Shown here: in pieces, positions 1 to 46,800 of the stretch
Numbering within the stretch: position 1 is the first letter of the stretch
How the letters are laid out: each line of letters opens with the position of its first letter
Assembly (NCBI RefSeq): GCF_016097555.1
Contig: NC_054699.1
Location: forward strand, 3,675,039-3,739,038
DNA: 64,000 bases
Reading direction: 5' to 3'
Source: Gigantopelta aegis
Lineage: Eukaryota > Mollusca > Gastropoda > Neomphalida > Peltospiridae
Notes under the pieces: generated by a model
Databases searched by the model: none
What the model was told of the DNA's origin: nothing
Seen by the model: only the letters and a program-made list of their open reading frames with translations
Program-made: the position numbers and the translations under genes

Positions 1-97
1 AGTCGTTAAAACTCGTTCTGGGTGGGAGCCGGTACCGGGCAGCGAACCCAGTAGCTACCAGTCTGATGGCTTAACCACGACACCACCGAGGCCGGTA
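1..97 (-). repeat. tRNA-derived SINE (family B), head fragment
   Basis: Read on the - strand this is a tRNA-like SINE head: an A-box-like segment (gtggttaagccatc) is followed by a B-box-like ggttcgctgcc and a CCGGTACCGGCTCCCACC block. The distal part of the same family (attaaggttcaagcac and cctcagc) seems to recur at 32735, 50783 and 16988. It is a Pol III-type retroposon fragment and not a functional tRNA. Confidence 0.6.
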
Positions 98-952
98 AGG
101 TGGGCTAACGACGAAGCCGCTGATGGTCCATCGTTGGTTTATCGACAGAATGCTATAATTTGGGAGGTGGCGGGGGGGGGGGGGGGGGGGGGGGTAATAA
201 CAACAACAAAAAAACACCCCAACCTTCACAACAACCAACGAAATGTTTTTGGTTAGTGTTGGGAATCACTTAGAATTTAATAATGATGATAGAATAATAA
301 TTCTATAAAAAAATGTTTTATCCCACTGCCCTTTTTCCTTTCTCACCTTTGACTTCCAACGCAACTCCTATCTTTCCTCCTATATTTAAACTTCCTTTGC
401 TGTCCACTTCCACATCCGTGTCCTTGTCTCCCCAACCGCGACATGTGCTTGTCTCTTGTGGCACACCTGCCATTACCCTTCAGTTTTTATCTATAGGTTT
501 AGTCTGACCACTTCAGGGTGTTTAGTAGTTACTTCAGGTGTTGTTAAGAGGCACTTGTTACCACCTACTATACTCCACTACTACCGGCAGTCGGTCAGAC
601 CAGTTTTATTAGCGGCAGAGGACGAGGATGCCAGGTGGGTGCAGGTAAGTAATGGTGGTTCATGTCTACTTACAGAGCGTTCTGTTTGTATTGGTTAACG
701 AATGAATTAATCACCGGCTTTTGGTAATTTTGGTATTTCCCACAGTATTCAGAGGAAACACCAGGCCTGTAGGAACGATTTTGGAAGTGTGTGTGTGGGG
801 GGGGGGGGGGGGGGGGCACTGACGGACCGGGTACAAACTCTATATCAGATTTTGGTTAAAATGGCAAACATTAATGTGATAACAAAAAGGCTCACAAGTG
901 TCCCCCGGATCCTGAACACTACGAGGTTTCGTTAACAGGAAGGGTTATTTTA
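98..952. other. noncoding stretch with two long poly-G tracts
   Basis: I see no convincing coding exon here. The short ORFs have no recognisable domain. Uninterrupted G runs lie at about 172-194 and 799-816. Confidence 0.5.
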
Positions 953-1041
953 TATGCATGTCCTACTTTCACATAGACACGATAGCACATACCACGTACG
1001 GCCTTTGATATACCAATTGTATGGCACTGGTTGGGATAACA
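953..1041 (-). repeat. SINE (family A) core fragment
   Basis: This is a reverse-oriented degraded copy of the core shared by about 20 other places in the window. Shared words are gatagcacatacca, ggcctttgatatacca and gcactggttgg. Confidence 0.6.
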
Positions 1042-1367
1042 ACAGGAAGTTATACAGGAACGTTCATGTAGCCTAATACATCAACATTTTAAATTATGGT
1101 TGTTTGGTGTTTAATTTAACAAATGCTTTGATTTGTTTAGGTTTTCTTAATGGACATTTTATCTAAAGGCTGAAACTCCACTGCTCAAAGCCCTTTTTTT
1201 CTTTTCTTTTTTTATGTATTTGCCAGAAAGCATGACTCGACCCCCCTCCCCCCTAGAAAGAATAAACGTCGATCACTACACTGCACAATTTCATAATTTT
1301 TTGCACACATCCCCTCCCCCCCCCCCCCCCCAAGGTCTTTGATATATCAACCTTGGGGCACTGCTAG

Positions 1368-1399
<32 letters not shown>

Positions 1400-1489
1400 A
1401 ACTAATAAAAAAACCAACCAACCAAACAAACAACCTCCGAGGCCATCAAAAGGGATCGATCCTAAAACACATCAAACCTACGATGAAGA
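1042..1489. other. noncoding, simple repeats
   Basis: There is a poly-C run near 1316-1332, a (TA)n run near 1375-1400, a small SINE-like scrap around 1333-1365 and another around 1436-1470. No gene is seen. Confidence 0.5.
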
Positions 1490-1564
1490 AGGATTAAAGA
1501 AATGGTTTATTTAACGACGTACTCAAAACATTTTATTTACGGTTATATGGCGTCGGACATATGG
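1490..1564 (-). repeat. SINE family A, 3' tail, interrupted by the transposon at 1565
   Basis: This is the reverse complement of the SINE tail (tttatttaacgacg, ttatatggcgtcggacatatgg). The next expected words, ttaaggaccac and agatattga, appear only at 7812 onward. The 1565-7810 element therefore splits a single SINE. Confidence 0.75.
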
Positions 1565-1732
1565 AATATTTTTATTATTTAAGCATTGAGAACAGTTAAT
1601 CCAATCACATTTGGTGCATATAAGACGCCACACTCCGCATTGGATTCGCTATGCTGGCTTTTCCAAGTTAAAAATAAACCCAGTATTTTGAAAGTGGGAC
1701 ACTTTTGACGGGCTTCTATAGAGTGTGTGCGA

Positions 1733-1784
1733 TGACGTCACAGTTTCTGTGTACGCAAGTCCCGGCAGCCATTTTGGAGGACAA
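1733..1784 (+). promoter_or_regulatory. left subterminal inverted repeat with CRE-like site; probable promoter of the YqaJ gene
   Basis: TGACGTCAC at 1733-1741 contains the cAMP-response-element palindrome, and gccattttggaggacaa follows at 1768-1784. The same two words occur in inverted orientation near 7559-7599, in front of the other gene. The segment ends about 55 bp before the ATG at 1840, which fits a promoter or 5'UTR role. Promoter function is inferred. Confidence 0.45.
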
Positions 1785-2175
1785 ACAAAAGAAGTATTAT
1801 CATTGTTAGTGTTCAGCGAAGTAGAAAATTGATGTTATTATGTCTAAACAACTAAAATCATTACCCGTGCCTAAACCAGGTTATGTTGGTACACTGGATA
1901 GTCTATCTAGAGACCGATATTTAAGCAAAATAAGTATTATTAATAATGTCGATCCATATGAAGTGACGAAACTCGAGTGGTCCAACAGTGAGAAAAACTT
2001 TCCGAGTGTTTTGTATCCAGACATTGTAAATTACTTGATATTTACAAAAAGTTTTTATACTATGGACGACATGAAGGCATGGAAAAGTTTAGATGCTTTT
2101 AACCAGCTGACCTCTGGATGGATTAGTGACGTTGCAGTCTGCATTAAGAATGGATTTCACATTGTTCGAGCGAAG

Positions 2176-2732
2176 GTAGGTCACGTGTTCATATAATATA
2201 TATATACTATAGAGATATACCAGGGCTTTAAGTGTCACTAATTTGGGGACTTTGTTTAAGCATAAGAAGGACTTTTTGGTGCAGTAATTATTAAGTTAAT
2301 ATTTTAGTAGGGCTTGAGGTCAGCATGTTTGTACTTAATTTTGGCATACGATATGTATTTGTACTTCACTTCAGTGCAATCAAAAGCCCTGTACATACTA
2401 CTACTATAAGTACGGAAAAATATCCGCCCGGTCCCCCCTAACCCTAACCCCAACCCCTAACCCTAACTAATAATAATAATGGAGGGGACCAGGCGGATAT
2501 TATACCATTTATTGATTAAACAAACCAATACATTGTTATATATACATGTATGAACCTTGACTTAGAAGAAATGCTGTTTGCTGTAATTTATTAAGAATTT
2601 ACTTATCAGATATATAACTATAACCAATATAACTTAAACATGTGGTAAATGATTGTAATATTTTTTATTGCTACTAATAACATACTTTTTATTGAAGTTA
2701 TAAAGTAAAATTATCAATACAAATTATTTCAG
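2176..2732 (+). other. intron of the YqaJ-type gene
   Basis: The intron has a gtaggt donor at 2176 and a ttatttcag acceptor ending at 2732. It is AT-rich and includes the inverted repeat with telomere-like motif at 2419-2501. Confidence 0.65.
2419..2501. repeat. short inverted-repeat element enclosing CCCTAA repeats
   Basis: The arm aatatccgcccggtcccccc (2419-2438) pairs with ggaggggaccaggcggatat (2481-2500), leaving a loop of CCCTAAC-type repeats and (ATA)n. This is a miniature foldback element inside the intron. The loop resembles interstitial telomeric sequence. Confidence 0.6.
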
Positions 2733-4312
2733 GTGTTACATTCGCAAAGACTGAGAGAAAAGCCTTTGCAACCCTGGGTCATTGCGGAGAAGAATGGCAT
2801 GGTCTGCACAACACACTGTGATTGTATGGCAGGGTTAGGTGAGGCTTGCACACACATTGCAACACTACTGTTTGCAATTGATGCAACTGTGAAGATCAGA
2901 GATTCGAAGACTGTCACCCAAGAGCCGGCCTATTGGCTTTTACCGTCTGCACTGAAAGACATAAAGTATCGACCAGTCGGCGAGATTGACTTCACATCAG
3001 CCCAGACCAAACGCTTGAATTTGGACCATTCAATTGCAACTGGGACGCCTGTTGCATGTCGTATTCGCCAGCCTAAGGAAATACCTGCTCCAAGTGCTAA
3101 CAGATTGGACAAGTTCCTGCAGGGACTTAGTATTGGTAGGGTAAAACCTGCTGTCTTATCAGTTATAGAACCGTTCAATGATCACTTCATTCCTCAACAG
3201 GCTCAAAATATTTTTCCAGATGTTCTTTCTGACATGTGCCAAGAAGAACTTTATATGCAACCGTATAACATCATTTTGCAAAAATGTACTTCAGTTAACA
3301 TCAGTGCTACAAGGGAGCAGATTGAAGCCACAGAAATGGCAACTAGGGGTCAATCAAATTCCCGACTGTGGCAGCGTTATCGAGCGGGGCGCATAACTGC
3401 ATCAAAATTCCGAAAGGTTTGTAAAACTGATCCTTCACAGCCATCTCCCAGCTTGATTAAGGATATTTGCTATCCCCGAGAAAAAAAATGTAAATACACC
3501 AGCAACACGATGGGGTCTGTTAAAGGAAAGAAAAGCAAAGGAGCAGTACTTGGAGCTGATGAAAATGAAACATGTCAACTTCAAGATGAGAGATTCTGGT
3601 TTTGTCATTAGTGAGGAGCACCCACAGATTGGAGCATCACCCGATGGATGTGTCACCTGTGACTGTTGTGGTGATGGTTGCTTAGAAATAAAATGCCCGT
3701 ATCTCATCAGAGACAGAGATCTTCAAAATGTTAAATCTGAAGAAATGTGTTTGGTTTTAATGAGGAAGGTAAATGGATGTTGGACAGAAAACATGAATAC
3801 TTTTACCAAGTTCAGTGTCAGCTGTTTGTTTGTGGACGAACGTATGGAGACTTTTATCTCTGGACAACCAAATCCTATCACTGCGAAAGGATTTACAAAG
3901 AGGAGACATTCTGGCCAGATACTACACAAGCAGTTCTATTCATTTTTCAAGTTGGAATTCTGCCAGAGTTGCTTGCGAAATATTATTCACGGATGCCTCT
4001 ACTTGACCACACAAATCAGCAAAAGAAAGCAAGCCCTCAAGCTGAGATTGCCGAAGTGTGGTGTTTCTGCAAAAAGGAAGAATTTGGAGACATGGTTGCT
4101 TGCGACGGTCAGAACTGCCCCATTCATTGGTTCCACTATGGGTGTGTAGGTATATTGACAGAACCTAAAGGCAAGTGGTACTGCCCTGAATGCAGAAAAG
4201 ACAGGAGGAAATCAAGAATGGTGAAGCGATAATGAACAAGGAGAAAATCATGAATGATAAAGGGATAACAGAAATAACATTATTAAACTGAAATGTTAAC
4301 ATTAATAACATT

Positions 4313-4404
4313 ATATGTGGACAAAAACCAAAACATGTCTGTAGTTTTCCATTAATATGGAAATCCAAGCTACACTGAAGAGTCCTGGAGGGACGAAACA
4401 TGTT
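4313..4404 (+). repeat. left arm of a ~92-bp inverted repeat between the two transposon genes
   Basis: Read forward, this segment matches the reverse complement of 5114-5206 with only a handful of differences. The similarity stops on both sides of the arms. Each arm consists almost entirely of a hammerhead ribozyme. Confidence 0.85.
4333..4403 (+). ncRNA. hammerhead ribozyme motif 1 (sense to the YqaJ gene)
   Basis: All elements of a hammerhead are present in order. Helix III is ACATGT (4333-4338) with ACATGT (4398-4403). The cleavage-site C is 4339, after GT. Helix I is TGTAG (4340-4344) with CTACA (4370-4374), extended by a TTTCCAT/ATGGAAA hairpin. The core CTGAAGA (4375-4381) fits CUGANGA. 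Helix II is GTCC (4382-4385) with GGAC (4391-4394) closed by a TGGAG loop, then GAA (4395-4397). Helices I and II are closed and helix III is open (type III topology by the usual convention). Predicted cleavage is between 4339 and 4340. It lies about 100 nt past the stop codon of the upstream gene, so it would sit in that mRNA's 3'UTR. Activity is not shown by sequence alone. Confidence 0.88.
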
Positions 4405-5113
4405 TTAACTTATGTAGTGGCAAAGTATTCACTGTAGCTGTTTTGACATAGTGTTGAAATAACCCATATGCTAGACACAAATTGGCCATTGAACATTTAA
4501 AAAGTTTACTTATAAGTAAGGTCAGGACACTTGGGTCACACAAAACTGATGATGTGCAGTATGAACAATTAACTGATAGAAACATGTAGATAGATGACCA
4601 ATGTACATACTATATGTATTAAATTCCAAACTACTAAACATTTAAATATACACATGTATTTCATTTATTGATATTCATGAATAAAGTATAACTGACCATT
4701 TGTTAATCTGGAGAAAATAAATTATACAAATTTAAACACAAAAATGCTAAATTTGTAGTAAAGTTTTATTTAGTTGACTGAGGTATGTAGTGTCCTGTCT
4801 ATGGGAAAGTTCACATAAAATATTTTATTTTAACAATACCGTACATCAATGCCAGTATAATCACAAGTAAAATGTGTTGAGAGTATTGTTAATAAAACAA
4901 TCCCCCCCCCCCCCCCTCCCATTGGTGTTAAAGAGAAAAAATGAGCTATATATATAGCTGAACAATGGGGAGTCATTTGGATTAGAATATCATGTTTCTT
5001 TCCCAAGTGTGCCACATTTTTTTTTTTAGTCTGTGGCTCATACATGTACTAATAGATGTTCTCACCATATTATTTCAGTTAACTCGATAGAACACTTGTG
5101 TGTCTTTAACAGA
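4405..5113. other. spacer between the two ribozymes; convergent 3' ends
   Basis: No coding sequence is recognised. An AATAAA lies at about 4679 on the + strand, and several TTTATT words give - strand polyadenylation candidates near 4760-4900. A C15 run is at 4902-4916. If both genes use these signals, their primary transcripts overlap in this spacer. Confidence 0.45.
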
Positions 5114-5206
5114 GAAACATGTTTCGTCCCTCCAGGACTCATCAGTGTAGCTTGGATTTCAATATTAATGAAAAAACTACAGACATGTTTTGGTTTTGTC
5201 CACATT
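5114..5206 (-). repeat. right arm of the ~92-bp inverted repeat
   Basis: Reverse complement of 4313-4404, including the ribozyme. Differences are scattered single bases, mostly outside the catalytic core. Confidence 0.85.
5117..5188 (-). ncRNA. hammerhead ribozyme motif 2 (sense to the DDE transposase gene)
   Basis: On the - strand, helix III is ACATGT (5188-5183) with ACATGT (5122-5117). The cleavage C is at 5182. Helix I is TGTAG (5181-5177) with CTACA (5150-5146). The core is the canonical CTGATGA (5145-5139). Helix II is GTCC/GGAC (5138-5135 and 5129-5126) with a TGGAG loop, followed by GAA. Predicted cleavage is between 5182 and 5181. It lies about 280 nt downstream of the transposase stop, again in the sense of the upstream gene. 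It differs from motif 1 at the tolerated N7 position and in the distal part of stem I. Confidence 0.88.
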
Positions 5207-5469
5207 TAATTTCTAAATACTGTCTCACTGCTGATAACTAGAGTTATAGCCTCAATATTTGTAATATGCTTTTTTTTTATAAAGATGTTCAGGATAGGTT
5301 TTGTGGAGTACAACATGTACATTTAGGTCACACATCTTGTTGCTTCACATACATGTAAACATTTGTTAACTGTTATAGCAGAAATGTACATGTACACCAA
5401 ATAAGTATGGCTGCAGTTGAATAGGTTTTTGCAGGATTCCAAATTGTGGTAAGCAGTTGTCAAGTGTTT

Positions 5470-7496
5470 TTAATCAGATGGAACAATCGGCCCATTCAAA
5501 TTAATTAAAGCACAGCAAACAACAGCAATTTTGTCGACAGTGGTAACATCTTTACCATCCTTGACAATCAAATAATCTATTGGAAGAGTTTCAGCAAGTA
5601 AAGTGTATTTCTGCCTCAACAATCCAATAACACGCTCTACATGAATTCGAAGATGGGCAATTTTACGTGATTTTTCCAGTTCCAATGCAGGCATCTGAGT
5701 TTTCCCTTTAGTGAATGCGGGCATTTTTATAGTTGCCATCATAAGTCCAACACTATCAGCGATGTCGAAATCTCTGTCAGCTAAAATAACATCACCAGGC
5801 AGAAGTTTATTGAGAAATCCACAGTGTTCAGTCAAGAACTTATCACTGACTCGACCACCCCAGGCTCTTGAAATGAAGGAAACTGTTCCCTGTGGTGTAA
5901 TTCCAATAAGAAATTTAACAGTATTGTGGTGCTTGTATGTTGACCAAGTAAGGGCCCTTGCCTCCAGATTGGAAGGTGTGTCAATGAAAACCTCAAAACA
6001 GTCTATTATGACAACAACTTTAGATTCTAAGTAACGACGGAATTCCATAGGCATTGTCTTCTTCAATTCATCACGTCCTGGCCAATTGATAAGTGGTTGA
6101 AGCATAACATGTAAAATATCAATTGTATTTAAAAAGGTTCTTGAGACTGTTGTCTTATCAATATTAAAAATAAACCCTAAAAGTACATTTGTAACATTTA
6201 ACCTAAGTTTCATCAGTGTAAGCAATAGCTGTTGAAATCCAGATAATGCTGATCTGGGTGTGACATTTTGATGTATTGAAATGTATTCCAGAAGTTGCAT
6301 TAGAATGTGATGAGTTGGCAGTCCAGTCATAAAGTTAACTTTCTCATCATTGCCTTTCAACCCTTCTTCAGTTAGTTTCATGGAAGCCAAACTCACATTT
6401 CAAATCAATATTTTCAACTGTGAGTCTTCTCATTTCCTCTTCCATTGACACAAGTTGATCACCAGTAGTTGATGTTTTGGCTTTCCTTTGTAGTGGTGTC
6501 GTCAGATGGTTCAACTTCGGTGGACTGGTCTTCAACTATCACGTCTTGGAGAGATAGTAGGACTGAGCTGCTTCAGTCCTTTTCCGTTTTGTGGTGCGGC
6601 CAATGATCCGTTCATGTCGAGAAGAATTTTCTTTTCCTGTGGTCAATTTAAATTTATCATGACCAAGATGTAATGTTGGTGCCCAATCTGGATTAGTCTT
6701 GTCATAAAGGGCTGAAGGTTTACCTGCATAACACAAGAGAATTATAACTTAAAATGATAAAACAAATTTAATATATTAATATCTACATCAAAAAGCAATA
6801 CAAGGCCTATTACAATCACTTACTGTAAAAAAAATAATTAATTTATATTAATTTTAATCAAATGTTAATAAGTATAAAAAAAACTAGTGTGCATGCGAGT
6901 TTATGTAGTATGAATTGTAAAATACCAGTGCAAATGATATAAATAATAAACAACTTTGTTTGGACAGGTTTTAAATGTGGTTTTTTGTTTTTTTATTATT
7001 ATTTTTAATTATTTACTAAATGTCTTTATTTACTAGGCCTACATTTTACTACTAAATCTTGTAAATCTAAATGTCAACATTTCATACAATGTATGCACCC
7101 CAATATTATAATGCAAGCTCTCCCAGAGAGAGAGAGAGAGAGAAGATAGAGATAGATAGAGAGAGAGAGAGAAGAGGGAGAGAGAAGATAGAGAGAGGGA
7201 TAGAGAGAGAGAGACACACACAGACATATACTGACATAGTTTGGATTAGGTAGAAATTAATAAAATGTTAACTCACCATTTATAAAATGCAAAGAACAGA
7301 TGCGAAAATATGGGTAACTTGATGGTTTTATATCGACCCGTCCAATGTTCGAAAGCCACACTCGTCTCCGTTCGTCTGACAATTCGTGGGTCTGTTCTCC
7401 TTGTGACAAACGAACTGTTGGAAGTCTGAAGAAGGAAAATGCACAGTCTCTGCCCGCACGGTTTCCGCAACCAAAAACCCCACAGAATTTTACCAT
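5470..7496 (-). pseudogene. THAP + DDE_Tnp_4 transposase gene (ISL2EU-like), frameshifted
   Basis: Exon 1 (7496-7277) encodes a THAP zinc finger (MVKFCGVFGC at the start and CSLHF near the end), with a gtgagt donor. Exon 2 starts at 6723 after tatgcag in matching phase and continues GKPSALYD and NPDWAPTLHLGH, typical of the segment after a THAP domain. A short coiled-coil-like stretch (MEEEMRRLTVEN) lies near 6440. The catalytic part runs from about 6396 to 5470 (308 residues uninterrupted). Its acidic residues are visible in [16 protein letters not shown] and HVERVIGLL, matching the DDE triad of the DDE_Tnp_4 family. Frame changes near 6545, 6490 and 6397 separate the THAP and DDE parts. An alternative upstream ATG exists at 7535. 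The gene ends facing the YqaJ gene. Confidence 0.78.
6724..7276 (-). other. intron of the THAP-DDE gene with (GA)n microsatellite
   Basis: The intron lies between gtgagt (7276 downward) and the acceptor at 6724. A GA-rich microsatellite occupies about 7120-7214. Confidence 0.65.
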
Positions 7497-7558
7497 TTTA
7501 AGTATATTACAAAACAACAACAACGTATACAACAATGCACAAAGCTTGTGCTCAAAGC

Positions 7559-7599
7559 TTGTCCTCCAAAATGGCGGATCGCAAAAGTGGTGACGTCAC
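7559..7599 (-). promoter_or_regulatory. right subterminal inverted repeat with CRE-like site; probable promoter of the transposase gene
   Basis: This is the mirror image of the 1733-1784 segment: ttgtcctccaaaatggc at 7559-7575 and tgacgtcac at 7591-7599. It lies upstream of the transposase start codons. A further TGACGT lies at 7615. Its role is inferred. Confidence 0.45.
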
Positions 7600-7810
7600 G
7601 CGCACTGGCCCTATTGACGTCAAATACGGCTAAAAATAGCACGGTTTAGCTACTGTTGCATTACAAAATGGCGAGAATTGGTCGAAGTGCGTAGTAAGCA
7701 TTTGACGATATGCGTTAATGGCAACAACTCGCGAGTGAATTAAAAGTGCATTTATGCTTGTATTTGAACTTAGAACTTGATTTTATAAGACTGAAACCAG
7801 AGATGGCAGC

Positions 7811-8055
7811 TTTAAGGACCACGCAGATATTGATGGAGGAAATCCCGCGCTGTTGCCACTTCATGGGCTACTCGTTTCGATTAGCAGCAAGGGATCTTTT
7901 AATATGCACCATCCCACAGACAGGATAGCACGTACGGCATTTGATGTACCAGTCGTGGTGCACTGGCAGGAGCGATAAATAGCCAAATGAGCCCATTAAC
8001 GGGGATCGATCCCTAGCTCACCGCGCACCAAGCGAGCGCTTTACCACTGGGCCAA
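7811..8055 (-). repeat. SINE family A, second half of the copy split by the transposon
   Basis: It continues in register from 1564: ttaaggaccac, agcaagggatctttt, tatgcaccatcccacaga, then the head with ggggatcgatccc and tttaccactgggcc, the inverted B and A boxes. Confidence 0.8.
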
Positions 8056-8689
8056 ACTTACGATGAATGCTAAAACCTAGCCACAGTTTCATCAAAACCT
8101 AAGAATGATATGCACACTTGAAGCGTAATGCGACAGTTACAATATTCACATCACCTTTTATTTTGAACTACGTTATTAACAAAATGTAAGCATATTTACT
8201 ATGAATATAAATTATTATAATAAATGTTTGTTTTTATCAAATTTATGTAACTATAAATAAAAAATAAATAATAATAATTTTGTGTTAGGACTGTATCCAA
8301 AATGTTATCGTTACGTTGGCAAAAACTAAAGTTATTCACGCATCCCATCCACGCCCGACATACACTTATACTCTTGACAAATACTATTTTACCTATAAGT
8401 TCAAGGGTCACATACCTGTCAATTTTAAAAGGTGAAGAAAGTTACCTCACCTTCGGGTCAGAGGCAATGAGGCAGATCATTGTAAAAATGCGCGCAAGGT
8501 GCTTGTTGGTATAGGAATTATTTTAAATGTCTGCAATTATATATTAGTTATGCAGTCATTATTTGATACACTTTACGTCTTGTTTTCTTTATTTCACTAT
8601 AATAATCTATTGTAAATATAATCTATATGTTTGAAATGGAATTGAATGAAGAACTATGTTGTGCGTGTGAACACAAGTTATAAGTAGGG
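8056..8689. other. noncoding AT-rich stretch
   Basis: No gene, RNA or recognised repeat could be supported. The 70-residue ORFs near 8199-8514 lack any known motif. Confidence 0.4.
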
Positions 8690-8951
8690 CACACCCTTGA
8701 AACAAGATGGCGGCAGTCATTCGATGTGGACAAGTGGTCATAAAACATGGAACAGAACATAAAAGTGATGGAATTTAAGTTCTGGAACCCAGCATAGCCA
8801 ATGGTTCAATTACAGCAACAATTTGTTAGCAAACTTTCCTTTCATACAGACAAAAACAATCATTTGTTTTCTTTTATTTCTAAAGTTTTTACCTTGAATC
8901 TTGAAGTAATTTGAGAAATCCTGTTACGGAATGAAAATGGCAGTACAACAG
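8690..8951 (+). promoter_or_regulatory. candidate promoter and first exon ending at a GTGAG donor
   Basis: AAGATGGCGGC near 8703 matches the YY1-type initiator-region motif found at many animal promoters. Downstream, atgaaaatggcagta opens a short frame (MKMAVQQ) that meets a GTGAG donor at 8952 in phase 0. Phase 0 would join in frame to the kinase exon at 56876, so it could be an alternative first exon of that gene. It could equally belong to another gene or be chance. Confidence 0.3.
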
Positions 8952-9779
8952 GTGAGAATAAATTTATGTTAAAACGTGCCTAGTATTCATAGACAGCATA
9001 AATCAATATTGTCAATGTGTTTTTACCGAATAACACATAGTTACCGATCTGTGGTATTCAGGGACATACCGTAGAGTCTACCTGTGAAAGGTTTGTTGAC
9101 AGTGATGATGTTTATTTTGGGTCAAATGTGTCTTATATGCTTTTGCTTTACAGAAAATATGGACTGGTGTTGTGGGTATGACACTAGTTAGTATATGTTC
9201 TTTAGTTCGTTGGTATCAAACCAACAAATGTGTAGTTGTACTAGTTTCCATTTTATGGGAGTTGTGATGCATCATAAATTTGACACATTCTCAAGATTCT
9301 GTTTCAAGTGTTACAAAACAGACCACAACAAAATACATGTAACACTAACCAGGAACATGCTACCAAATTGTCAGGGGTGACCGTGCCAAAGTAAAGTCCT
9401 TCCAAATTGTCTTTGACAAGACCTATTTCATCCTAAGTGCATGCTTTTGTTTAGAATATATTTAGCAATACGTCATGTGTACAACACAAAACTAAAAGGG
9501 GCATGTATATATATTGCATGAAAAAGTGAAAAAAACATTCGGATCATTCATACCATAGCTTACCAGTGTTCGAAACTAGCATTTGTCCATTTGTCCTGAC
9601 AAGTGAAAATCTGCTCAGACAAACAAAATGTACTTTGGTGGTTGTCCAGTGGACAAGTTAAAATGTTCAATGAAGTTTCATTTTGAGCAATAAAAAACAC
9701 CGTCCTTGTACTTGAATACTTGAATAAAACAAACTATTTATTTCTAGACAAGTCGATTTCTAGATGTGTTTGTCCGGTG
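8952..9779. other. noncoding
   Basis: No exon is recognised. The segment around 9570-9680 (dense in ttgtcc and gacaa words) resembles one near 33670-33740 and is probably a degenerate repeat. Confidence 0.35.
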
Positions 9780-10355
9780 GACTGCAGGGGACAATATTTC
9801 GAAATCTGAGGGAACCGGAAGTCGGTTCACGTGGTTTTTACCTAGGTAACCAATTGTTCGGTTACGTGAATAATATTTGCGAAACCCGTGGGTTACCCGA
9901 TCGGTTACCTCAAAATTACGTTGAAATTATATTTTAAATACATAGTTTTTAGCTGAAACATAAAGTTAAAACAAATACAAAAGAAAACATTTTACAAATA
10001 AAAATGTTTTTAATGCTTGCTAAAGTTAACAATATTATAAAAGAACTGAATATCAGCCCCAGTACTGAAACAAAATACAGGGTCGTAGCCAGAAATTTTC
10101 TCAGCATTACGCATGCCAAAGGCCTTCCCCTGTGAACATTTTGAAAATCAGGACGCCTGTAGATGCAATCTGAGCCTTTACGGAGGCATTTTTTAAATAA
10201 TTTTTTTGTAATCTTTTTTAGAGTCAATTTTAAAAGGATATTTTAGAGAACCATCACAGACAGCCTCGACCTATTCCCGGATGTAGTTTTTACATAACGC
10301 ACATGTGTACTGTGCGTAACGGGCGCTACGCCTTTGAAATATATACATAATCATT

Positions 10356-10607
10356 CAGTGTTTCTGCCAGAAAGAAATGTTTGGGTATGGAGCTATGGAA
10401 TTGAATGCAACCACATGCAGTCATCATGGGGTATGGGGGGCCTCCCCCAGAGAGAAAATGGGTTACGTTTAGGGTTATGGTTGAGGAAATCATACAGTAA
10501 TGATAAGAGTAATTAATTTTGTCAAAATATTACCTTAAAAAAATAAAATATGCCACAAAAATTTGGGTATGGCGCCATACCCGTTTTACCCTCTTGCAAA
10601 AACCCCG
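10356..10607. mobile_element. hAT5-like MITE (family b, copy 1), TSD tcatt
   Basis: The element starts CAGTGTTTCTGCCAGA. Its inner right arm (gccatacccgttttaccctc) mirrors the start, and the outermost right bases are mutated. The sequence tcatt flanks both sides (10351-10355, 10608-10612). Other copies are at 60543 and 63322. Confidence 0.7.
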
Positions 10608-11854
10608 TCATTTGGAGGGAATCCCTTTTGCGTTGGCTATGCTACTTTCACTTTATCGATGGTACTTCTATACTACAGAGACGTTCCCATGGCTGTTAAC
10701 TGTCCGTCGTGAGACGGATTTCCGTTGTCAGAGAAATTGTGGAAATTATTTTTTCAGTCAGTTTTTTTTAATATTTTTTAAATGAGAATCCCTTCGGCCG
10801 TTTTCGGTTTCCGTAATGTCAACCCGATCGCTTCGGACGTTTTCTTTGCCCCACTGACCCCCTTTAGGGACCCATCCCAGGGTATAAACTACTATACATT
10901 TTGGGGCCGGTGAACAGCCCCATTCCCCTAACGTAAATTCCCAATCCAATATCAAACTTTTCCCCAATTAGACCCTTCAACCCAACAGTTTCCCAATAAA
11001 GATTCCCAAAGTTGCTCTTATCGTGGACACTTGAACTCATAAAAATGTTTACAAATTTAGCTAATTGTATATATTTTTTAAAAATTACATCGAAAAAGTT
11101 TCGTTTTGGTTTTCCGATCGATTATGAACACGTGACGAACAACTCTGACCTGGATATGCAAATTAGGTGTATCCTGTTTTGATACAGTCTGTTGTATTGT
11201 AGTTTTTAGTGATAATGCCTACATTGTCTGATATAATATATTTTTGGTAGAAGAATATAACTTTTTGTTTTAATCCATCCATTTGCGTTAACACATATTT
11301 GGGATTTACGGACGTAGAAAGTAAAAGTATTGACTTAATGTGCATCCTGCACTACCATTTGCTGTGCTATTTTAAGCAGACCATCTTATTTTGTAAAAAG
11401 GTGTGTACATATATGTTTCGTACTTTTTTTCTTCAGATATTTTATTATTATTTAAAAAAAAATTAAAATCATGTTTGGTACGGTTTTTGTAATTAAACCC
11501 CCCTAAAAAAAAACGTTACTACAGTAGTAGTAAATTAAGTGAAAAAAACCACCCTAATTTAAATGTGCTACTCACTCCCTTTGAAGTAATGGCCGTACCC
11601 GATGTCACACCATGTGACGAACAGCACGTGCGAGTTTGAACATTGTTACAATGTAATAGTTCCGCTGGGAGATTATTAGATTGCGTATTATAGATATTGA
11701 GACTTAATAAAATTGATCCGGTGAACAATTAACATTTACCGACCAGCGGTATGTTACTTCTTTATTATTTACGATTGAATAATGGGGTCATTCGAGAACT
11801 ACTCAACGTGCACTAAGGAGAGTTGGAATTATGGGATGTGTGACAAAACGTAAT

Positions 11855-11876
11855 GGGGGGGGGGGGGGGGGGGGGG
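11855..11876 (+). repeat. G22 homopolymer
   Basis: Uninterrupted run of G. Confidence 0.9.
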
Positions 11877-13017
11877 TGTTGTTATTGTGCAACGTAATGT
11901 TAATTAATAAAGTATACAACCGGTCATTGCCGTTTTATTTTAACATATATGTATTACTAAAGACCCCAAAGTAAAATATGACATGGTCGCAAAACGTTAC
12001 ACGAGCGAGAAGGGTATTAAAACTGCAAGATTTTGCGTTACGTATTGTTAAATGGACACAAAGATCAACAGAGGACTATTCAACGTTACCGTAATGCAGT
12101 ATCAGACATTGGCTTTTACCCCAATTTTTAACGACCATAATGAATTTGCGATAAGACTACAGCGACCCGATGTAAATGTATTTGAATATTTGATTTGCCG
12201 TCCATTAGCTGGCGGTCAAGCCTAAATAAATAATATCAAGTAATAATGCAAACTTTAAAAAAAATGTCCGTAGCTTGTTGAAAGAACACCCCAGCAAATG
12301 TCAGCCTAATAGGACTATTTTTTATTAATATAGGTTCACTGCAGGACCCATGTTTTTGTCCAATAAAAAATAAAATAACGGTTTGGGTTGGGAGAAATAC
12401 ATGTTTAAAGTGGACTACAATTGTCATGTAAAACACTACCATTTTGAATGGTGATATAATCATGGCACTGACATCTGCCATCTAAACCCCCAACCAGGGC
12501 AATGCCCTGTACCTTGAAATTTCAGTCACAACATTTTACTTTTGTTAACAGCCATGCGTTCCAAATGTTTGGGTTTTTTAAAGCTCATTATGCGATGTTT
12601 TTGGATTCCTGTTTTTAACATATGCAAAATTATAGCCAATCTAATATTATATCTACATATATACCTTTAAGAGATAAAATAGCAGTAGATAATTTAGCCG
12701 TCCCTACCGGTCTGAACACATTTCTTTAAACTTTTTTAAAAGTTTAGACTGGTCGCAAGTTACAACTGTTGCAATATAATGTTGTTTACTGGTTTTCTGC
12801 GCATCAAGTATCTAAAATTCAGCCTAAAACATCTGGCGGAATACTAGTACTAGTAGTAGTATGTCTGGATGAATAAACATCCTCTAATCGTGAAGTTTTA
12901 ATTTCTGAACGTTTACAGGTCATGACGTAACCAGTTTGCGGTTTGCGTAAATTTAATTTTGTGTAACCGACACGCGAACAGAACGGCGGTTCGCGTGAAA
13001 TATTATGCCCTGGACTG

Positions 13018-14814
13018 GTGAAAAATTCTGCTTATTTATCACTGCCTACTGGACAAACAGTTAGTTGGGACAGGTATGAAAATCATTCCATAGTTTTATA
13101 AATGTGCAGGGGGTGCAGAAAGTACTCTCCCGCACGCCAAATGTGAAGAAAATTTCTGACAGACAAGTTAAAAATTGCAGCTATCAGTCCTGATGGGCGA
13201 TTTGTCTTTTTATGAATGACTGTAATTGAATCCACAGATCCAAATTAGCCATTCCAAAATTCCAAACCATTTAAACAAATAATTCAGAATTATGACGAAA
13301 TACACAACAATACATGTACCACATTGGGAATACACAACATCAGAGTTCCGAAATACACTAGTGCGACATCTGATCACAGAAACGGGTTATAGCGAAAACG
13401 ATGCTGTGCCAAAACTTACCCCAAACGAAAACGGAACCAAATTGGACACCGCGAAATCCAGCATTGGCTGAAACAGCACCATAATTTAAGGCTATATGGC
13501 TAAAACAGTACCAAAATCATGGCAAGTTGTGAACTATATCTTCAATATAACAACAGAGCTCTATATTAATCATTTCTTACTTCGTTTTATTTTTATGTCT
13601 ATATAGGGCAAATATAAGTATTAAAAGCTAGCTAGATGTCGGTCAACTGCAGACAGTTGTAATCAACCTGCCACTGCAACAAACATTTCTTTAGTTATCT
13701 TCAAATTGCAGTCCACATGTGTTTACAGAAAACATTCTTTGTTTACATTATTCAACATTTAATAATGGATGTTCTGACCAGACATTTGCGTCCCAACACC
13801 GTTTTCGCAAATTGGGAATTGGGAAACTGATTAACGTGCACATTCAAAGCAAGCTGTTGTAGCGCACACCTGTCCTGGGCACAGGTACTGGCCTCAGCCG
13901 GTTCCTCCATTCAGGACTTGCGCAAATAAATTAAAATGTCATTATAGCTGCATTTTTTTCTTGTTTTAAATGGTACCGTTTTCGTCAATACATTTGAGGT
14001 GCAAATCCATTTTTCAGATTAGCCAATTGTTAATGTTAATACAAAGTGATCCGAAGTTAGAAACTTTAATTTTATACTATATCAGTTGATGTCAGTGCAG
14101 TTGTTAATTTCAAGCCTTGGATTTTGGTGATTTTTTTTTTTTTTTTTTGATTTTGTAAGATCATAAACATGATTTTTTAGAGATATCTGGTGATTCCATT
14201 AGAGCTTGGAGATACTGAAATTTCATATTTCTTCGGTATTGGTATTTTGGGGGTGATTTACATCGGTACAGTATTCAGTATTGATACAATACCAATATCG
14301 AGCAGTATATTTGGTATACTCTGCTTTAAATGCATGCCCGAATTAAGTCGCACCTGCTAATTTCATTTAAGTGAAATTAAATTCCATCCACAAAGTCCTC
14401 ATCTCTCTTCTTTTCAGCTATTTTGCGTTTGTTAGATATATTGTTATTGCTTTACTGAATGGCGGATAGCATTTTTCAATACCAAAATTTCGGAATCTTG
14501 AAATTTGGTTGGTGCGGTAAATCGGTATTGACATGATACCTATACCGATACCATCCCAAAATCTGGAATTTTGCTGAGGCACAGAATCATGCTAAATTTG
14601 CAGCTTGTATAACATTTCTCCACATAGCTCATTGGCAGTTTCTGAGAATTCATAACTGACACCAACAGAACAATGGTTTGTTTGTACCCTTGACCCAGTG
14701 TTCCAGTGTGTCAATTAATATTTAACTAGTTATTTTGGGATTCTATCTCATGATCATAAATACAGGTGCAGAGATGGACCATGGATCTTAATTTATATAC
14801 AGATTGAAAAAAAA
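13018..14814. other. noncoding, degenerate repeats
   Basis: No exon is recognised. Around 14230-14560 there are repeated GGTAT/ATACC words in both orientations, suggesting an old inverted-repeat element. A T18 run is near 14130. Confidence 0.35.
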
Positions 14815-26274: not shown

Positions 26275-26577
26275 GTAAGTATAAATTGGTCTTCAGTAGT
26301 TAATTTTTAATTATTGTTGTATTTAAAAAAAAAAAGTACATGTACCTGGACACATTGTAATAAAACTCTATCATAAAACATTCCTTTTCAGAAATAATAT
26401 CATCAGCAGTTTATACCTGTGAATGCCTATGATAAAATAATAAAAATAATGCATGGTGATTTCATGAACGGGTGTGTAAGAAATATATAAAAATATCTAC
26501 AGGTACATGTATGTTGATGCTGTTATACAGCAACAGGTGTTTATAAATATATTTTTAGCGACAGTTTTGTTGTACCT

Positions 26578-27056
26578 GGGTTACATGTGTAGCTTAGTGG
26601 TAGGGCGTGCATTAGAGACCAGGGTTACACGTGTAGCTTAGTGGTAGGGCATGTACTGGAGACCTGGGTTACACATGTAGCTTAGTGGTAGGGAGTGTAC
26701 TGGAGATCCGGGTTACACGTGTAGCTTAGTGTTAGGATGTGTACTGGAGACCTGGGTTACACGTGTAGTTTTAGGGTATGTACTGGAGACCTGGGTTATA
26801 TGTGTAGCTTAGTGGTAGGGCGTGTACTACTGGAGACCTGGGTTACACGTGTAGCTTAGTGGTAGAGTGTGTACTGGAGACCTGGGTTACACGTGTTGCT
26901 TAGTGGTAGGGTGTGTACTGGAGACCTGAGTTACACGTGTAGCTTAGTGGTAGGGTGTGTACTGGAGACCTGGGTTACACGTGTTGCTTAGTGGTAGGGT
27001 GTGTACTGGAGACCTGGGTTACATGTGTAGCTTAGTGGTAGGGCGTGTACTGGAGA
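26578..27056 (+). repeat. 44-bp minisatellite built from a tRNA/SINE-head-like unit, ~11 copies
   Basis: The unit includes gtgtagcttagtggtaggg, then gtgtactggagacctgggtt. The first part looks like a Pol III A box, as in the SINE heads. Copies are very similar, with one contracted and one expanded copy. Confidence 0.85.
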
Positions 27057-27186
27057 TGAGATAGTAGTATCCATCCTCATTTGAATATTCGTCATTTCAA
27101 CCCGTGTTGTGAAAGGAAATCAGCCATACAGTTCACTAAGGACTGAATTGAATACATTACGGGGTGGAGCTCGATAACTATTATTG
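27057..27186. other. noncoding spacer
   Basis: Nothing recognised. Confidence 0.4.
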
Positions 27187-45384: not shown

Positions 45385-45640
45385 GTGGGGACATAGCCCA
45401 GTGATAAAGCAATCTGATGCCCTGTCGGTCTAGGTTCAATCCTCATCAGTGGACCCATAGGGCTATTTCTTGTTATAGCCAGTACTCGACAACTGGTGTA
45501 ACAGAGGCTGTGGTATGTACTGTCCTGTCTGTATGATACTGGATATAAAAGAATCCGTGCTGCTATTAATTGGATGCCATATAAGCATAATTAAAGTGTT
45601 GTTAAATAAAAACATTCCTTCCTTCCTTCCTTCCTTCCTT
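45385..45640 (+). repeat. SINE family A type 1-like, complete, founder of the adjacent satellite
   Basis: Head (acatagcccagtgataaagc), B-box-like ctaggttcaatcc, core and a (CCTT)n end. The tail is a short variant (gccatataagcataattaaag). Confidence 0.8.
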
Positions 45641-46800
45641 CCTTATTATTAGGGCTATTTCTCGTTACAACCAGTACTCGACAACTGGTGTAACGGAGGC
45701 TGTGGTATGTACTGTCCTGTCTGTGTGATATAAAAGAATCTGTGCTGCTCATCGGATGCCATATAAACATAAAGTGTTGTTAAATAAAAACATTCCTTCC
45801 TTCCTTATTATTAGGGCTATTTCTCGTTACAACCAGTACTCGACAACTGGTGTAACGGAGGCTGTGGTATGTACTGTCCTGTCTGTGTGATATAAAAGAA
45901 TCTGTGCTGCTCATCGGATGCCATATAAACATAAAGTGTTGTTAAATAAAAACATTCCTTCCTTCCTTATTATTAGGGCTATTTCTCGTTACAACCAGTA
46001 CTCGACAACTGGTGTAACGGAGGCTGTGGTATGTACTGTCCTGTCTGTGTGATATAAAAGAATCTGTGCTGCTCATCGGATGCCATATAACACAAAGTGT
46101 TGTGCTAAATAAAAAAAATTCCTTCCTTCCTTTATTATTAGGGCTATTTCTCGTTACAACCAGTACTCGACAACTGGTGTAACGGAGGCTGTGGTATGTA
46201 CTGTCCTGTCTGTGTGATATAAAAGAATCTGTGCTGCTCATCGGATGCCATATAAACATAAAGTGTTGTTAAATAAAAACATTCCTTCCTTCCTTATTAT
46301 TAGGGCTATTTCTCGTTGTGGTACTGTCCTGTCTGTGTGATATAAAAGAATCTGTGCTGCTTATCGGATGCCATATAAACATAAAGTGTTGTTAAATAAA
46401 AACATTCCTTCCTTCCTTATTATTAGGGCTATTTCTCGTTACAACCAGTACTCGACAACTGGTGTAACGGAGGCTGTGGTATGTACTGTCCTGTCTGTGT
46501 GATATAAAAGAATCTCGACAACTGGTGTAACGGAGGCTGTGGTATGTACTGTCCTGTGTGTGATATAAAAGAATCTGTGCTGCTCATCGGATGCCATATA
46601 AACATAAAGTGTTGTGTTAAATAAAAACATTCCTTCCTTCCTTATTATTAGGGCTATTTCTCGTTACAATCAGTACTCGACAACTGGTGTAACGGAGGCT
46701 GTGGTATGTACTGTCCTGTCTGTGTGATATAAAAAATCTGTGCTGCTTATCGGATGCCATATAAATAAAAACATTCCTTCCTTCCTTATTATCAGTCTCT
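45641..46800 (+). repeat. satellite of SINE 3' halves, ~7 tandem units of ~165 bp
   Basis: Each unit runs from ttattattagggctatttc through the SINE core (ggctgtggtatgtactgtcc, tgatataaaagaatctg) to aaataaaaacattccttcc. The head is absent from all of them. One unit is internally deleted and another has a duplicated core. The long - strand ORFs here are only shadows of this array. Confidence 0.9.

Follow-up and report, generated by a model that had tools for sequence, protein, structure and literature searches.

Inverted hammerhead ribozymes follow the two convergent genes of an ISL2EU DNA transposon in the gastropod Gigantopelta aegis

The stretch of Gigantopelta aegis DNA analysed here (the window; 64,000 nucleotides, NC_054699.1, positions 3,675,039–3,739,038) raises the question of why two hammerhead ribozyme motifs should stand between the 3′ ends of two convergent genes, and whether they belong to the element that carries them. 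A preliminary description of the sequence had placed the two motifs in inverted orientation, each in the same sense as the gene that precedes it. This arrangement is borne out by matches to the Rfam family RF00008, by predicted folds, by an inverted repeat that holds both motifs and by Pfam matches of the two genes, and the limits given for the block, 4313–5206, are correct within a few bases (Table 1). Each hammerhead thus lies behind its own gene and on the same strand.

Type III hammerheads consist of three helices around a CUGANGA ... GAAA core, with NUH at the cut and an open-ended helix III. Both motifs are of this type by Rfam match, fold and covariation, and self-cleavage is predicted for each. 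In a scan of 4200–5300, RF00008 (Hammerhead_3) matched the left motif at 4332–4404 on the + strand (40.8 bits, E 3.4e-7) and the right motif at 5189–5116 on the − strand (45.2 bits, E 2e-8). A default Rfam scan of the whole window lists neither, since both fall under the gathering score of 48.5; we additionally built our own covariance model for these ribozymes, termed R1. The full core letters are present in both arms, namely GUC, GAAA and either CUGAAGA (+) or CUGAUGA (−). The minimum-free-energy folds are hammerheads (z −3.3 for the left and −2.5 for the right), with a helix III of 8–9 bp, a helix II of 4–5 bp and a helix I of 5 bp, beyond which come an asymmetric internal loop and another hairpin. 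Cutting is predicted after position 4339 on the left (GUC 4337–4339), 107 nt past the stop codon of gene 1, and after 5182 on the right, 288 nt past the transposase stop codon. The two ribozymes are near-identical and inverted, with 709 nt between them, and self-BLAST aligns 4310–4405 with 5210–5115 at 94% identity. In a 12-arm alignment from three families (F1–F3, see below), the UGG of loop II and parts of the stem I internal loop are invariant, which would fit loop-loop contacts. The spacer carries AATAAA at 4680, 4716 and 4891 on the + strand and at 4829, 4770 and 4669 on the − strand, hexamers that are not in themselves evidence of use.

Table 1. Features of the transposon copy in the window (positions count from the first letter of the window).
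Feature	Position	Strand	Description	Basis
Left copy of AT target-site duplication	1718..1719		right copy at 7613-7614	element ends compared across copies
ISL2EU-type DNA transposon	1720..7612		~5.9 kb	limits from alignment with genome copies
Terminal inverted repeats	1768-1784 / 7559-7575		imperfect; positions are those of the inner perfect 17-bp part	inverted repeat I6
Gene 1	1825..4232	+	YqaJ/alkaline-exonuclease-like nuclease with C-terminal PHD finger	Pfam, animal homologues
Left arm of hammerhead-holding inverted repeat	4310..4407	+		self-BLAST, inverted repeats I1, I2, I5
Left hammerhead ribozyme, type III	4330..4406	+	3′ of gene 1, in sense	RF00008, model R1, fold
AT-rich spacer between arms	4408..5112		with AATAAA hexamers; kept in most copies	
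Right arm of inverted repeat	5113..5210	-		self-BLAST, inverted repeats
Right hammerhead ribozyme, type III	5114..5191	-	3′ of transposase gene, in sense	RF00008, model R1, fold
Gene 2, DDE part of transposase	5470..6399	-	HTH_Tnp_4, DDE_Tnp_4	PF13359 E 1.2e-49, PF13613 E 3e-17
Gene 2, THAP domain part of transposase	7257..7595	-		PF05485 E 1.7e-9

Judged by its sequence, the host element is an ISL2EU DNA transposon of G. aegis. The available text of PMC4482050 describes the ISL2EU group of PHIS (PIF/Harbinger-ISL2EU-Spy) as elements of animals with an AT duplication, a THAP-HTH-DDE transposase and a second ORF of YqaJ type. The window element has the AT duplication, a transposase with THAP, HTH and DDE parts and a second ORF with a YqaJ domain. 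AT flanks the window copy on either side and also borders the other copies shown, and the A/AT/T context given in the same text is seen at some ends only. After the AT, the element reads AGAG on the left and AGGG on the right, in place of the GG with which ISL2EU terminal inverted repeats usually start; since the available text says "usually", the missing GG does not exclude ISL2EU. Gene 1 comprises the open pieces 1825–2196, 2709–3611 and 3741–4232, separated by introns or breaks. Its second and third pieces match PF01771, PF09588 and PF00628/PF23011, and the first has no Pfam match. The genes converge on the zone 4233–5469. One in-frame TGA interrupts the transposase match of the window copy, against none in four other copies of the same family, and a G. 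aegis protein that is the product of another copy (P0001) has THAP, HTH and DDE in full length. A copy of the element also lies on contig C3700 of the assembly. Five of the eight ORFs of at least 100 aa in 1–14000 were scanned with Pfam; they matched transposase, nuclease, PHD and THAP domains and showed no match to a reverse transcriptase, the enzyme that would mark a Penelope-like or Terminon element. Elsewhere in the window, 26574–27057 is a tandem repeat with 88-bp steps at about 86–93% between copies (self-BLAST), and 45388–46729 is another, with steps of ~162 bp in part, which shares sequence with dispersed repeats near 15.0, 18.0, 20.0, 24.1 and 33.0 kb.

The same arrangement recurs in other families of this genome, which we grouped by sequence, F1 being the family of the window copy. 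The core pattern CTGANGAGNCCNNNNNGGNCGAAAC has 71 matches in the 1.15-Gb genome and the reversed pattern none. We examined 41 of the 71 (30 fetched loci and 11 matches in ISL2EU copies already known), and 40 of these 41 lie in ISL2EU copies, with 29 ISL2EU loci and one other locus among those fetched. In all 29 ISL2EU loci the left hammerhead is preceded by YqaJ exons of the same sense. An inverted right hammerhead is found in 20 of them (18 of the 27 distinct elements); in 13 of these 20 it is preceded by transposase exons of its own sense, in 7 no transposase exons were detected, and in none are they in the opposite orientation. F2 (for example L027, L028, L032–L034 and L037) includes many copies whose transposase gene is shortened or undetected, and two F2 copies have ends that read AT followed by AGAGGGTT. 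For F3 (L031, L050, L056, L058/L059), a search of one element with simple end motifs did not find its ends. The one fetched locus outside ISL2EU (L051, C7:1966878) spans 3 kb without any piece of an ISL2EU protein; its match at 1474–1532 (+) is hammerhead-like, with a complete core, a short helix I and a poorly pairing helix III. Two further core-pattern matches, C15:31038937 (−) and 31041924 (+), stand 3 kb apart in opposite orientation and point away from each other. At another locus (L025), further YqaJ protein pieces, 24–47% identical, lie at 291–671 and 5053–5813 near a truncated F1 copy, which suggests that several ISL2EU families inserted near each other.

Seen from the transposase side, the trait is less regular. 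A Gigantopelta protein used as query (P0077) gave at least 94 genome matches (89 of 434 candidates scored), and 7 of 20 transposase 3′ flanks of ~550 bp each hold a hammerhead, in all seven in sense and 92–157 nt after the stop codon. These belong to F3 (L070–L072), to F2 copies with a longer transposase (L067 and L074) and to a family F5 (L068 and L073). In the other 13, no hammerhead was found within 550 bp (F4, L061–L064; F6, L065, L066, L069, L077 and L078; and L075, L076, L079 and L080), L069 having a best score of 11 bits (E 0.52). The trait is thus not universal in this genome, or the hammerhead lies further away in these flanks. The F5 hammerhead is less similar, with 22.5 bits against R1 and 34.3 bits (E 2.4e-4) against RF00008, and folds unconvincingly when no constraint is set (z −0.4). 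Both F5 flanks (L068, C13:17849903; L073, C3:3834067) have an A-rich run just before the cut, which in L068 is A14. Transposase and nuclease queries had no match in the viral_contigs database. A contig in a Poribacteria MAG (L060, JAAXGN010000095.1), possibly a stretch of the host animal's DNA that was binned with it, codes for a transposase of animal type with 44% identity; no hammerhead was found in its 3.6 kb (best R1 match 8.0 bits, E 1).

Between families, the hammerheads are conserved with compensatory changes. In an alignment fitted to the structure model (A3; 61 matches, 43 distinct rows), 93.9% of cells are paired and double changes occur at 10 of 21 pairs. Against shuffles that ignore the relatedness of the arms, A3 has 67 double-change cells where 21.8 are expected, and slid structures give 0–4 such pairs. 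A MAFFT alignment of 21 arms (A1), measured against shuffles with the same limit, has double changes at 4 of 23 pairs, a value reached by 28 of 500 shuffles, and 7 double-change cells compared with 1.6 in shuffles (0 of 500). Comparing the F3 locus L031 with F2 loci gave 19 hammerhead matches of 82.6–87.2% identity and 19 YqaJ-side matches of 65.8–79.6%; on the transposase side there are 13 matches (two to F1) at 71.0–80.8%. These counts leave out an L033 match (66.9%) that spans the hammerhead and beyond. Every left hammerhead identity between F2 and F3 is therefore above every coding match. Between F1 and F2, the left hammerheads are 75–76% identical, and the YqaJ pieces share 29–49% of residues. 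Within F1, change over 7 copies amounts to 1.2% in the left hammerhead, 0.8% in the right, 1.4% in the spacer, 0.7–0.9% in the ORF parts and 1.7% in THAP; with so few changes no constraint was found in these 7 copies, which are too young to display it.

The right arms of F2 offer a natural comparison. A G in place of the conserved A of the hammerhead core is expected to stop cutting. Exactly this change (UGGNGA) is found in 11 of the 12 F2 right arms of copies without a long transposase match (L028, L034, L037, L038, L040–L042, L044, L045, L048, L049 and L057, the exception being L037), and two of the 11 have a further core change. CUGAUGA is intact in the right arms of L033, L067 and L074, which stand beside longer transposase matches. 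The cut triplet of F2 right arms is GUU. The UGGNGA arms are probably inactive, and their state fits a loss of selection once the upstream gene is broken. The shortened F2 copies probably share one founder, in which case the break of the right arm may be a single event. Copies with a UGGNGA right arm were amplified (for example L028, with the arm at 3897–4013).

Some of the history of the pair can be read from the arms. A long stem-I hairpin is common to the F2 and F3 right arms (90 of 105 positions) and missing from the left arms of these families; the helix III sequence is ACACGU in most left arms and ACAUGU in the F2 and F3 right arms. From these shared features, the two-arm state is probably older than the split between F2 and F3. 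Identities give a less clear signal, with 72 of 80 positions between the left arms of F2 and F3 and 72 of 82 between F2 right and F3 left. In F1 the left and right arms agree at 73 of 77 positions, as expected from later homogenisation or later duplication. In a midpoint-rooted transposase tree, F1 and F3 fall at different places in a 30-row group that also contains bivalve, priapulid, hemichordate and fish sequences, among them those of Saccostrea, Ylistrum, Sinanodonta, Priapulus and Glandiceps; the inner order of this group is not resolved, and F3 stands beside Priapulus with support of 94/82. If the pair is ancestral to F1 and F3, hammerheads are predicted, or were lost, in ISL2EU relatives from those phyla.

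What could such a pair do? Our preferred reading, to which we give about an even chance, is that it is an inherited part of several ISL2EU families and that the mRNA of each convergent gene is cut by the hammerhead in its own 3′ UTR, keeping the transcripts apart or untailed and/or expression low. As the nuclease (+) or the transposase (−) is transcribed, the hammerhead would fold and cut the RNA about 90–290 nt past the stop codon. This cut would precede entry of the polymerase into the other gene's half of the spacer and would as a rule lie upstream of AATAAA. The mRNA bodies would be freed without overlap and without a distal poly(A) site, and antisense RNA and dsRNA from the tail-to-tail genes would stay low and/or both proteins would be set at a low level. 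We infer that cutting takes place in vivo and during transcription and, likewise, which of these consequences is selected. According to the available texts, a hammerhead placed in a Pol II transcript was found to cut in HeLa cells during transcription (PMC2288634), and the termination exonuclease Rat1p acts poorly on the 5′-OH end that a hammerhead leaves (PMC2702688). On the latter ground cutting need not stop the polymerase, and the cleaner claim is thus separation of the mRNAs and not termination.

The position of poly(A) signals bears on this model. Same-strand AATAAA lies at least 340 nt downstream of the cuts at 4339 and 5182. In 6 of 7 arm types, the 700 nt 3′ of the cut contain AATAAA and the 300 nt before the cut do not; in the seventh, the F2 left arm, the hexamer varies by copy, lying downstream of the cut in L033 and 179 nt before it in L027, with none within 700 nt after. 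The downstream hexamers weakly fit removal of the poly(A) tail, and AATAAA is common in AT-rich DNA. Pairing between the arms may matter as well. Computed without loop cost for F1, F2 and F3, the duplex of one arm with the complement of the other reaches −95 to −120 kcal/mol, compared with −22 to −28 for the fold of the left hammerhead. As the duplex is the more stable in a read-through transcript, uncut read-through would protect itself, and such a transcript could lock each hammerhead in a duplex with the other arm's complement in cis, a complication that is absent from the preliminary description.

The same evidence can be read as self-limitation: the cut would remove the poly(A) tail, the mRNA would decay and the proteins would be scarce, with uncut (for instance arm-paired) transcripts being the productive ones. 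We regard this as possible, with a smaller share of our confidence. The AATAAA positions in 6 of the 7 arm types agree with it, the strong arm-to-complement duplexes could supply an off-switch, and a hammerhead in a 3′ UTR is known from Clec2 mRNAs (available text of PMC6155905). However, ATTAAA precedes the cut in both arms of F1 and in the left arms of F2 and F3, and a trait that only lowers its own element's expression is harder to keep across families. The anatomy is the same as in the preferred model, and nothing here separates the two.

A more speculative proposal, which we consider doubtful, is that a lineage of cut-and-paste transposons, maybe in several animal phyla, ends its mRNAs by hammerheads at a site preceded by a poly(A)-signal-like hexamer and an A-rich stretch, which would free its tail-to-tail genes from overlap and from reliance on host cleavage-polyadenylation, and that arm pairing in read-through transcripts switches the ribozymes off. 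Another reading, in which the hammerhead replaces cleavage and polyadenylation and a templated A/C-rich end stabilises or exports the mRNA, seems to us unlikely. A+C is above the local background in the 30 nt before the cut in all 7 arm types, with 3 of 7 singly below 0.05 and a combined P of about 5e-6 that is post hoc and comes from arms that are not all independent. Five of the 7 arm types have ATTAAA, or a hexamer one mismatch from ATTAAA/AATAAA, at −29 to −31, the genomic A14 of L068 directly precedes its cut, and an engineered reporter was given an A32 tract ahead of a hammerhead to help translation (available text of PMC2702688). Yet both the A+C bias and the hexamers were found by looking and serve as ideas only; A enrichment alone is significant only in F5, and the background P for a near-hexamer is 0.17–0.39 per arm.

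Could the inverted repeat instead act at the DNA level, as a hairpin or binding site, with the hammerheads as baggage that no longer cuts? The likeness of the two F1 arms, which resembles an inverted repeat kept uniform, and the broken core of many F2 right arms point that way. We nevertheless judge this quite improbable: left and right arms differ in F2 (71/85) and F3 (68/82), yet hammerhead pairing is kept with compensatory changes, and the less similar F5 sequence still matches the Rfam hammerhead, albeit with the unconvincing fold noted above.

Comparing genomic copies shows that the pair is part of the transposon and not a later insertion. With 40 of 88 candidates scored, a 1001-bp query matches the genome over more than 400 bases in at least 10 places, and all 10 of these long matches align to the body of this transposon. 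Both hammerheads are present in 8 of the 10 copies, and two copies are without the right one through truncation or deletion. GUC, CUGANGA and GAAA are retained in all 16 arms of the 8 two-armed copies; the arm of one single-armed copy is missing part of CUGA, and that of the other reads GUU. The 7 F1 transposase matches (C1, C2, C3, C9, C10, C849 and C3700; 89 of 434 candidates scored) are all block-holding copies, and no clean empty site was seen among the 10 copies found. The preliminary description had left room for an independent, hammerhead-bearing MITE of ~0.9 kb inserted in the transposon, and a 98-bp inverted repeat does bound the block, but the block was never found outside the transposon among the long matches and in other families the pair occupies the same position, which makes this reading extremely improbable. 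Its other suggestion, an inverted retrozyme pair or circular-RNA element, has next to no chance: type III hammerheads ~700 bp apart recall plant retrozymes (available text of PMC7229834), but these need hammerheads in the same orientation, whereas with inverted arms no strand holds two hammerheads and no unit-length circle is cut out, and the element has a DDE transposase and an AT duplication.

Both the ribozyme class and the transposon group are known, and their combination and placement we have not seen described. In a search that covered subscription journals thinly, we found no paper joining ISL2EU and hammerheads and, among the matches listed, no hammerhead in a cut-and-paste transposon. 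Paired 3′ hammerheads, each tied to one gene and maintained through compensatory changes, would make DNA transposons a new class of hammerhead host element and might give the ribozyme a new use, that of shaping the mRNAs of transposase and partner nuclease alike. The pair also opens to experiment the question of how a compact element whose genes converge escapes making dsRNA against itself.

As far as the available texts go, hammerheads in print come from retroelements, satellites, introns and the Clec2 3′ UTR (PMC7229834, PMC3088659, PMC6155905). The account of ISL2EU in the available text of PMC4482050 mentions no ribozyme, whereas the window element has a hammerhead after each gene and is ~1 kb longer than the average of about 4840 bp given there. 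Among mRNA-borne hammerheads, that of mammalian Clec2 is likewise of type III and in the 3′ UTR of a protein-coding mRNA; however, as portrayed in the available text, it is single, discontinuous, has a very large helix I and belongs to a host gene, while those of the window are compact, paired, convergent and part of a mobile element (PMC6155905). Plant LTR retrozymes share with the window pair the type III hammerheads ~700 bp apart in a mobile element, but theirs are dimeric and serve circular RNA and retrotransposition, in contrast to inverted arms beside cut-and-paste enzymes (available text of PMC7229834). Penelope-like elements, Terminons and metazoan retrozymes, finally, are animal mobile elements with hammerheads, as here; in the same text, their ribozymes are of type I and their hosts retroelements, whereas the hammerheads described here are of type III and reside in a DNA transposon.
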